64,000 nucleotides of DNA from Candidatus Gastranaerophilales bacterium (GTDB lineage Bacteria > Cyanobacteriota > Vampirovibrionia > Gastranaerophilales > Gastranaerophilaceae). The stretch is from contig CALVAY010000009.1 of NCBI GenBank assembly GCA_944325665.1, forward strand, positions 1 to 64,000, in the 5' to 3' direction. Numbering within the stretch: position 1 is the stretch's first letter; each line of letters starts with the position of its first letter. Position numbers and translations under genes: made by a program. The notes under the pieces are model-generated. The model saw nothing but the letters and a program-made list of their open reading frames with translations, had not been told where the DNA came from and made no database searches. Positions 15,698 through 35,495 of this stretch are shown piece by piece.

Positions 15698-16792
15698 ATG
15701 ATACAACCTGTTGGAAATTTTAATATTAATTTTAAAGGCACTCCTGAAAGGGCTCAAGATGATGATTTGGGCTTTAGGGAGATTAATAAAATGTTTGCCG
15801 CAAGAGACAGAGAAAGGCAAGCTCAAAGGGCTGCGGCCAAAAGTGCGCAAACAAACCCGACAAGAGTACAAAAAAGTCAGCCAAAGACAACTCACAAAAG
15901 AGATGACAGAAATAACATCCGAGTAATAAGCAGAACTGATGAAGGGGATATAATAGAATTCAGCACAAGAAGCCGTGCGCCGCAGTCAAGAAAAAAAGGT
16001 AAGGGAAATATTATCCTAAGAGCGGCAATACCTTCAACAATTGCTCTTGGTACGCTTCTTGCAATTTTAAATCCATTGACCGACAAACCAAATGAGCCAA
16101 CCGGAGCTGAAACTACCTCAAGTCAAATATATACAACAAGCGCACCTGTTGAAGTAAGTGAGGAAGAATTAATTTCTCAAGCACAACAACAGGTTAGAAA
16201 ACAAGAAGTTAAAGAAGCGGTTGATAATATAAAAAAAGACCCTGAATTAAGTTTGCATTACTATAATATGATTACAACTCTTCAAAGAATGGATAACCTT
16301 CTTGGAGATTCTACAAGCGTACTTGAGCAAATATTAAGCGAACCTTGGGCGCAAAGGACTGATATTGAACTTCTTTTGCCTCAAATTTTTTATGAATCCT
16401 CAGGTCTGCACTACGATGAAAACGGCACAATAAATACAAGTTCGGCAAACTGCGTAGGCTTAATGCAAATAAGTGAAGATGCTCAAATTGACGTTAATAA
16501 AAGATATTTTAGCGATATGCCGCTTGACAGACAAAATCCTGTTGACAATATTAAACTCGGTATAGGATTAAATCAGCTTTTAAGCGAAGAATACTTTGGA
16601 GATGATATTTTTAGCGTATTATGTTCATATAACGCGGGAGCAGGCAACATATTAAAAGGCAATTATTTAGGTTCCGATATTTATGCTAACAATATTTTAA
16701 CTTGCGCTAAAGCACTAAAAGAACACCCCGAGTACACTCAAATGCTCTTATCAGGAGAACTTGACGAATACAAGGATGAACTTTTAGCTTAA
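15698..16792 (+). CDS. Membrane-anchored SLT-type lytic transglycosylase with N-terminal FKG signature
   Basis: A 364-residue protein with a C-terminal soluble-lytic-transglycosylase domain (~residues 215-350). Catalytic Glu233 lies in FYESSG, with GLMQI at 254-258, NIKLGIG and the YNAG motif in their expected order. The enzyme cleaves peptidoglycan between MurNAc and GlcNAc. A membrane helix at ~105-125 follows a basic, low-complexity region, so the catalytic part should face the periplasm. The first residues, NFNINFKG (7-14), carry an F-K-G signature shared with other unrelated proteins in this window. The gene faces the flagellar operon and its stop abuts the flgC stop with no gap, which could hint at wall remodelling for rod insertion. 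Confidence 0.9.
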   Translation: MIQPVGNFNINFKGTPERAQDDDLGFREINKMFAARDRERQAQRAAAKSAQTNPTRVQKSQPKTTHKRDDRNNIRVISRTDEGDIIEFSTRSRAPQSRKKGKGNIILRAAIPSTIALGTLLAILNPLTDKPNEPTGAETTSSQIYTTSAPVEVSEEELISQAQQQVRKQEVKEAVDNIKKDPELSLHYYNMITTLQRMDNLLGDSTSVLEQILSEPWAQRTDIELLLPQIFYESSGLHYDENGTINTSSANCVGLMQISEDAQIDVNKRYFSDMPLDRQNPVDNIKLGIGLNQLLSEEYFGDDIFSVLCSYNAGAGNILKGNYLGSDIYANNILTCAKALKEHPEYTQMLLSGELDEYKDELLA

Positions 16793-34067: not shown

Positions 34068-34409
34068 TTACCATTTTTTAAAAATAAAAAATGCTGCAAG
34101 AATTATAAACAAAAAACCGACAAGATAATTCCACCTGAACTGTTCTTTTAGATACAAAACAGAAAAAACACTAAAAACAATCAGGGTGATAATTTCTTGT
34201 ATAGTCTTTAGCTGTGCGGCAGAATAGACATATGAACCGATTCTGTTTGCAGGAACTTGAAAACAATATTCCAAAAATGCAATGCCCCAGCTTACAAGAA
34301 TAACAATCCATAATGCACTGTGTTTAAATCTTAAATGTCCATACCATGCAAAAGTCATAAAAATGTTTGATATAGTAAGTAAAACTATGGGTGTAAGTGC
34401 TTTTATCAT
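34068..34409 (-). CDS. DMT-superfamily small membrane protein (DUF486-like)
   Basis: A 113-residue protein with four hydrophobic helices (roughly residues 5-24, 33-52, 70-90 and 94-112), matching the half-size DUF486 proteins of the drug/metabolite transporter superfamily. The motifs SNIFMTFAWYGHL and FQVPANRIG are typical of DUF486. Substrate is unknown; such small units usually dimerise. A TAGAAT box lies nine bases before the ATG, giving a leader of two bases at most. The gene is 42 bases downstream of no other minus-strand gene, so it is probably transcribed alone and into dnaE. Confidence 0.85.
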   Translation of the reverse strand: MIKALTPIVLLTISNIFMTFAWYGHLRFKHSALWIVILVSWGIAFLEYCFQVPANRIGSYVYSAAQLKTIQEIITLIVFSVFSVLYLKEQFRWNYLVGFLFIILAAFFIFKKW

Positions 34410-34471
34410 AATGCTTTTATTCTAACTCAAAAAATAAAATATAAATATATGTAAATAATATTTATATGTAC

Positions 34472-34500
34472 TTGCCATTTGCACGTTATTTTAATATTGT
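34472..34500 (+). promoter_or_regulatory. Promoter of the 34507 RNA / mini-ORF
   Basis: TTGCCA (34472-34477), a 17-base spacer and TATTGT (34495-34500) form a good sigma-70-type promoter. Predicted +1 is A34507, six bases past the -10, which is also the A of an ATG. Confidence 0.65.
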
Positions 34501-34506
34501 ATTTAT

Positions 34507-34533
34507 ATGTTTCAAATTAATTTTAAAATTTGA
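34507..34533 (+). CDS. Leaderless eight-codon mini-ORF (possible leader peptide)
   Basis: The ATG at the predicted +1 opens the peptide MFQINFKI followed by TGA. Its geometry, a -10 hexamer ending 6 bases before ATG, is the same as at real leaderless genes in this window. The INFK core resembles INFKG at the start of the lytic transglycosylase. It could be a regulatory peptide or the relic of a longer protein of that group. Evidence for translation is only positional. Confidence 0.35.
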   Translation: MFQINFKI

Positions 34534-34587
34534 AACATAATTTAAAAAGTTTGCTCGGGGGTTTCCAGACATCTCAGGGCAAAGGAT

Positions 34588-34617
34588 ATCGCCTTATATT
34601 TCTATAAGGCGATTTTT
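34588..34617 (+). terminator. Terminator of the 34507 RNA
   Basis: ATCGCCTTATA pairs perfectly with TATAAGGCGAT around TTTC (11 bp) and is followed by TTTT (34614-34617). On the minus strand no T run follows, so it serves plus-strand transcription only. Confidence 0.82.
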
Positions 34618-34637
34618 CCATTTTATACCCTTTTATC

Positions 34638-35495
34638 TTAAACAAGCTTTTGAATTAACTTTAATTTATCAACAAAGAAGTTTTTAACACTTGTAATACT
34701 GTCTGAAGCACCTTCAAATATCATAAGCTGACCGCTTCCGTCCGGAGTTGCTTGAAAGACTTGAGTAACAGTATTATTTCCTTTTGTTTGTCTTAAAGTA
34801 AAACTATTTAGAGCATCTTGGAAATAAATTGCATTAAAATCACCAAGTTCATCATGCCTTTGAAGAGCAACTGAACCTGTACCGTTGTTAAAGTAAGAAG
34901 ATAATACTCTGCCGTCTTGAGTTAATTCTTGAATTGAATTTACTTCAAAGTCATCAAGGCTGTTTGAAACGATACCTGTTTTTCTTATAATTCCATCAAC
35001 AGTTTCTGTCATTTCTGTCGGCATGTTAAGTTCATTTTTCTTAAATTGTCTTACAACTGCGCCACTTTCATCAACAACATCCTGAAAACCGTCTTTTGCA
35101 GATTCGCAAAGGGTCTCTTTTAACTTTGCCACTTTTTGAGCAAACTCGTCATACATACCTTTTACTTGCTCGCCTGTCTTATCAAATTGCTTTTGCGCAA
35201 GGTTCAATACAGTGTCTGCGGCATCTTTAGGTCTCTTTTTAAGTATAACAAGACCCGCACCGACAGCTCCCGCAAAAGTAAGAGCTGCAACTATTGCTTT
35301 TTTAGGTAATTTAGGTTTATTTGCAACACTATCGGCAGGCTTGTTTAAATCTTTGTTTTCAGTTTGTTCGACAACAGCAGTTTTTGTTTGAACAGGCTGC
35401 TTCGACACTGCTGCTTTTGGCTGAGTCGGTTGCTCAAGCGCCTTAAGGTCATACTTAAAAGGAAACGGGTTTGATGATGTCTTTGTGATTGGCAT
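34638..35495 (-). CDS. Hypothetical membrane-anchored protein
   Basis: I do not recognise this 285-residue protein. Residues ~1-65 are a Pro/Gln/Lys/Ala-rich disordered segment with an NPFPFKYD start. Residues ~66-85 (AIVAALTFAGAVGAGLVIL) form one membrane helix followed by a basic KKRPK stop. A coiled-coil region lies at ~95-140, and a beta-rich C-terminal half repeats aromatic-rich strands (SSYFNNGTGSVALQ, then FNAIYFQDALNSF), which may be a small repeat domain. By the positive-inside rule the C-terminal part may be cytoplasmic. AGGA precedes the ATG. The N-terminal FPFK is reminiscent of, but does not match, the FKG signature. Confidence 0.75.
   Translation of the reverse strand: MPITKTSSNPFPFKYDLKALEQPTQPKAAVSKQPVQTKTAVVEQTENKDLNKPADSVANKPKLPKKAIVAALTFAGAVGAGLVILKKRPKDAADTVLNLAQKQFDKTGEQVKGMYDEFAQKVAKLKETLCESAKDGFQDVVDESGAVVRQFKKNELNMPTEMTETVDGIIRKTGIVSNSLDDFEVNSIQELTQDGRVLSSYFNNGTGSVALQRHDELGDFNAIYFQDALNSFTLRQTKGNNTVTQVFQATPDGSGQLMIFEGASDSITSVKNFFVDKLKLIQKLV

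Follow-up and report, generated by a model that had tools for sequence, protein, structure and literature searches.

RepG of Helicobacter pylori is a stand-alone intergenic small RNA (sRNA) whose hairpin loop pairs with the 5' region of the two-gene tlpB-hp0102 message (PMC8295292), and LhrC uses a CU-rich loop to pair with the Shine-Dalgarno sequence of its targets, Hfq being dispensable in the case of lapB (PMC4132741). Here we analyze the first 64,000 nucleotides (the window) of contig CALVAY010000009.1 of Candidatus Gastranaerophilales bacterium, and within it a short plus-strand unit of promoter, three hairpins and terminator. We estimate a probability of roughly 0.78 that this unit encodes a stand-alone, trans-acting antisense sRNA that blocks translation of a MerR-family (HspR-like) regulator independently of Hfq. 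We read it as a trans-acting sRNA because of its conservation as an RNA, its structure, its strand, its complementarity to one message and the uniqueness of that complementarity, all of them computational results. Within this reading, expression, the direction of the effect (repression), protection by the first hairpin, an action in vivo that needs no Hfq and the regulon further downstream are inferred.

In a DNA search, 10 further genus genomes carry the RNA unit with 74–79% identity, and a covariance model built from the aligned set recovers it in 11 of the 15 genomes of this Gastranaerophilales genus. Its position is constant across the genus: on one side it is convergent with, and downstream of, the gene for a DUF815 ATPase, and on the other side lies a divergent DUF486 gene followed by dnaE. 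Conserved synteny and covariation of the stems in relatives, which the initial annotation had proposed as a check, are both found. The three hairpins that it had drawn between two minus-strand genes (a 12-bp stem, a 7-bp stem with a 20-nt loop, and an 11-bp terminator) are likewise present, and the fold energy of −37 kcal/mol compares with a mean of −16.1 kcal/mol for shuffled sequences (z = −6.9; 0/200 shuffles).

The covariation follows the predicted pairs closely. The stem of hairpin 2 is paired in every homologue, with compensatory changes from CCC/GGG to CCT/AGG and to CTC/GAG. In the RNAalifold structure of 35 pairs, 95.3% of the cells pair, a percentage that is favoured by the derivation of the structure from the same alignment. 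Ten pairs are changed on both sides, compared with 5.4 after shuffling (0/500 shuffles), and the covariation score of 0.219, against 0.125 when shuffled, collapses when the partners are slid. Because the non-Watson–Crick pairs comprise 20 G-U and only 2 A-C, the plus strand is taken to be the functional strand. This bias and the plus-strand terminator rule out that the RNA is the leader of the minus-strand DUF486 gene, as does the TATAAT-like box of its own that DUF486 has, in relatives, between the RNA and its start. The most conserved element of the whole RNA is unpaired, namely the hairpin-2 loop CCAGACRUCUC, in which CCAGAC is invariant; most members also have a weak inner helix, GUC/GAC.

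The complement of this loop singles out one place in each genome. In the 15 genomes of the genus, each exact match to GAGAYGTCTGG is either the RNA gene itself or the ribosome-binding site of merR, and in every genome with the RNA a single perfect match remains once the RNA gene is set aside, always at the same orthologous place. An order-2 Markov model predicts approximately 0.15–0.2 matches per genome. The target context, ...CTATGAGATGTCTGGAGT(T)AAAAATG, comprises the end of rimO (a TIGR01125 match with 375 bits) at its stop codon, together with the Shine-Dalgarno sequence, GGAG, of the gene that follows, which encodes a MerR-family regulator of approximately 130 amino acids (aa). The MerR_1 domain is recognized above its threshold (48 versus 21.6); the regulator is nearest to HspR, though its best NCBIfam model, NF047375, reaches 66 bits against a cut-off of 105, so that it is not assigned to HspR as such. 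The site ATGAGATGTCTGGAG is invariant in all 13 genomes that keep the gene. In four of them (G004, L131; G006, L138; G011, L133; G012, L132) a one-base difference before the site makes rimO read through in another frame, so that it is about eleven codons longer and overlaps the merR start. That the site is invariant despite this change of frame argues that the constraint is on the nucleotides and not on the protein. The exact 15-mer has no further occurrence among 383 genomes of the family.

The predicted pairing is also strong. In 10 of the 11 RNA-bearing genomes the duplex of loop and site has 11–14 contiguous bp and an energy of −20.6 to −23.1 kcal/mol. Against a background of 17,904 windows from a 404-kb sample of the genome carrying the window (G000, 1.65 Mb in all), the conserved part of the loop binds the G000 target with −23.1 kcal/mol (z = −7.1), compared with −18.1 kcal/mol for the next best; the sole better window in the 404 kb is the RNA's own antisense strand. 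Co-folding of the full-length RNA with the mRNA region is favourable in all ten pairs tested, with a net gain of 5 to 17 kcal/mol (−5 to −17 kcal/mol). Several sequence properties of a trans-encoded sRNA are found together: a predicted promoter and terminator of its own, a location on a contig (C9) other than that of the target (C3), and a conserved, accessible segment that pairs with the merR Shine-Dalgarno in 10 of 11 genomes and more weakly in the eleventh, G005.

Presence of the RNA and presence of the target are partly linked. The RNA is cleanly missing from G002, G007 and G010, where DUF815 directly abuts DUF486; the contig of G001 stops within DUF815, which places this genome outside both the 11 with and the 3 without the RNA. 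The three RNA-less genomes group together as a single clade in the DUF815 tree (98/95), a pattern consistent with one loss, although gain versus loss is not decided by this tree. In two of them, G002 and G010 (listed completeness 99% and 94%), neither rimO at E ≤ 1e-60 nor merR is matched, so that the whole rimO-merR operon appears to have been lost. In G016, from another genus, rimO and merR are present while the site and the RNA are both absent, and the more distant merR homologues whose upstream regions were read have no site either.

Several observations weigh against this interpretation. The loop of G005 has diverged to CCAGACAGCUUU, leaving a duplex of 7 contiguous bp and −13.8 kcal/mol. 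With all 21 nt of the window's loop, the species-specific G run included, the target is narrowly outscored by three unrelated windows. The pairing partner lies in a hairpin loop, which must open, and the related genomes are non-independent observations. Finally, G007 has a perfect site in rimO-merR and yet no RNA, so conservation of the site may come partly from another cause, such as the stop codon and the Shine-Dalgarno, or the RNA may have been lost recently. In the DUF815-DUF486 region, G007 shares 95% identity with G010, which is without rimO-merR (G007 loci C27:64828-69036, L111, and C21:14530-16540, L140); recent loss, recombination or a binning mosaic are possible origins of this pattern.

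If the RNA does act on rimO-merR, hairpin 1 would protect its 5' end, hairpin 3 would terminate transcription, and hairpin 2 would display UUCCAGACAUCUCA. The partner of this segment, over 11–14 nt, would be UGAGAUGUCUGG(A), located at the junction of rimO stop codon and merR Shine-Dalgarno within the rimO-merR operon. Pairing would open hairpin 2 and hide the GGA of the Shine-Dalgarno, such that ribosome initiation at merR, or re-initiation after rimO, would be blocked and less regulator would be made, without Hfq. Consistent with this last step, Hfq (PF17209) is detected in none of the 15 genus genomes, the control genomes being positive.

The same pairing could instead lead to a different outcome: cleavage of the rimO-merR mRNA by an RNase, altered rimO termination or coupling, or even activation of merR. 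The site does overlap both the Shine-Dalgarno and the stop codon of rimO, and a duplex of 11–14 bp could serve a double-strand RNase as substrate. However, covering the GGA is the classical place for a translational block, and no upstream sequester stem that the RNA could open turned up, though none was looked for; we therefore consider such outcomes unlikely. Less credible again is a structured RNA that binds a protein or ligand and whose complementarity to merR is coincidental. The invariant CCAGAC and the inner helix of most members would suit such a molecule, but a coincidence would have to produce a unique match at one orthologous ribosome-binding site in 11/11 RNA-bearing genomes, and to leave two of the RNA-less genomes without the target as well. 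We give slightly less credence still to reversed roles, with the site in the mRNA serving as a sponge or decoy and drawing the RNA away from main targets elsewhere. G007, with the site and no RNA, could be read in this way, and further targets with shorter seeds are possible; against it, there is no other exact site in the 15 genomes and none comparable in the 404 kb of G000.

A leaderless sensor peptide, with hairpin 1 opening as the codons are translated, was one of the roles first proposed for this locus and is scarcely credible: the window does have an ATG at the predicted +1, but the peptide varies in length and sequence, three of the 11 genomes retain the hairpin and have no ATG there, and the plus strand offers nothing to regulate before the terminator. 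Specifically, the ATG at 34507 opens ATGTTTCAAATTAATTTTAAAATTTGA, or MFQINFKI*, as described in the initial annotation, and this much holds for the window. In relatives the frame reads MFQILIKI, MFQILIEI, MFKL, MFKF or MFKFCL, or begins with ATA in place of ATG, and hairpin 1 persists throughout. As a leaderless peptide or attenuator leader the ORF (open reading frame) fails on both counts, being unconserved and followed by a terminator and then a minus-strand gene, and judged from these comparisons it is an incidental by-product of hairpin 1. The same variation gives no support to the suggestion that it is the relic of a tagged gene, the INFK resemblance being confined to the window's own species. 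Two ORFs with an N-terminal FKG motif do occur in the window, at 15698 (+; NFNINFKG) and 49910 (+; FISFKG); they bear the signature to which the initial annotation referred and are unrelated to the RNA. What survives of the earlier proposals is the regulatory small RNA, to which synteny, three covarying hairpins, the G-U bias, the conservation of promoter and terminator, and an antisense site that is both unique and conserved all point.

Table 1. Coordinates of the sRNA locus and its predicted target (window positions unless another contig is named).
Feature	Position	Strand	Remarks
Small RNA	34507..34618	+	~112 nt; start predicted near 34507, 3' end at the T run of the terminator
Promoter	34472..34500	+	−35 TTGCCA at 34472, 17-nt spacer, −10 TATTGT ending at 34500; AATATTGTATTT conserved
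AT-rich inverted repeat	34439..34467		Upstream of the promoter
Hairpin 1	34507..34538	+	12 bp, covarying; coincides with the eight-codon ORF 34507-34533
Hairpin 2	34550..34583	+	7-bp stem TTTGCTC/GGGCAAA enclosing 20 nt; carries the conserved loop
Targeting element UUCCAGACAUCUCA	34563..34576	+	Complement of the rimO-merR Shine-Dalgarno/stop-codon region
Hairpin 3, intrinsic terminator	34584..34618	+	11-bp stem and T run at 34588-34613; conserved
Target site, rimO-merR	G000:C3:4457-4471	-	Outside the window (RNA on contig C9)

The promoter deserves separate comment. The match proposed at the outset, TTGCCA-17-TATTGT, is indeed there, and the 12-mer AATATTGTATTT is identical in 11/11 RNA-bearing genomes; the match taken by itself is not above chance, as the region has 5 promoter-like sites where 6.7 are expected. 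Approximately 48 nt upstream of the predicted RNA start, ten relatives share a dyad, TGTAAA-N5-TTTACA, which differs from the AT-rich repeat of the window and which we speculatively regard as a candidate operator. Near-exact copies occur almost exclusively upstream of the RNA. A role as a general operator was rejected on this account, the window carrying only its different AT-rich repeat, and we assign no regulator to the dyad. Additional copies of the TGTAAAATATATTTACA dyad away from the RNA were seen in two sister species, at G005:C8:75429-75445 (exact) and G014:C3:12134-12150 (one mismatch). It is conceivable, if improbable, that the circuit is closed, with the sRNA repressing the MerR/HspR-like regulator and the regulator acting on the sRNA promoter via the conserved dyad just upstream of the −35 box. 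Such a loop, if true, would sit in a sister lineage of the cyanobacteria that is non-photosynthetic and apparently lacks Hfq.

In the window the unit is flanked by minus-strand ORFs at 34068-34409 and 34638-35495. The latter, of 285 aa, is an extra, unannotated ORF with no Pfam or NCBIfam match, which separates the RNA from DUF815 in the species of the window; in the relatives read, the end of DUF815 adjoins the RNA directly.

The RNA appears to be confined to its genus. The covariance model gave no convincing RNA outside it in 193 relatives, where the extra-genus matches (E 0.002–0.09) seem by inspection of their sequences to be ordinary terminators, and a loose loop pattern gave only dispersed, chance-like matches outside the genus in 193 genomes. 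A strict pattern retrieved ten loci from a collection of 84,980 species, all labelled Gastranaerophilales or uncultured bacterium and on contigs whose lengths agree with those of the 10 other genus genomes, and none from viral contigs. Rfam 15 gave only chance matches and no family at both gathering and permissive thresholds. On the genomic evidence, the RNA is a conserved small regulatory RNA and represents a new sRNA family.

Full-text literature searches turned up no publication about small RNAs in Gastranaerophilales or Melainabacteria, and the present case would add to this lineage, which has no detectable Hfq, a new family with one strongly predicted and testable target, a transcription regulator. 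It also suggests that base-pairing regulation can be read from uncultured genomes when covariation is combined with the genome-wide uniqueness of a loop complement. Among known systems, Yfr-type sRNAs of cyanobacteria, the sister lineage, are similarly small stand-alone RNAs, but Yfr20 (RF02367) scores at chance level here (14.4 bits and E = 2.7, the gathering score being 44). Like the LhrC/RsaE-type sRNAs of Firmicutes, the RNA is predicted to pair with a target Shine-Dalgarno through a pyrimidine-rich loop; unlike them it has no UCCC motif in most members, is present in single copy with one loop, belongs to a different phylum and has no Rfam match. Like RepG, it is a stand-alone intergenic RNA with a hairpin loop pairing with one main mRNA, whereas here it is the middle hairpin that would bind, at a Shine-Dalgarno/stop-codon junction inside an operon; kinship was compared via Rfam only, with no match. 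The RNA resembles RepG and LhrC in its presumed mode of action, a likeness that need not reflect kinship. The kind of regulator, a trans-acting antisense sRNA, is a known one, and what is new here is the sRNA family together with its strongly predicted target.
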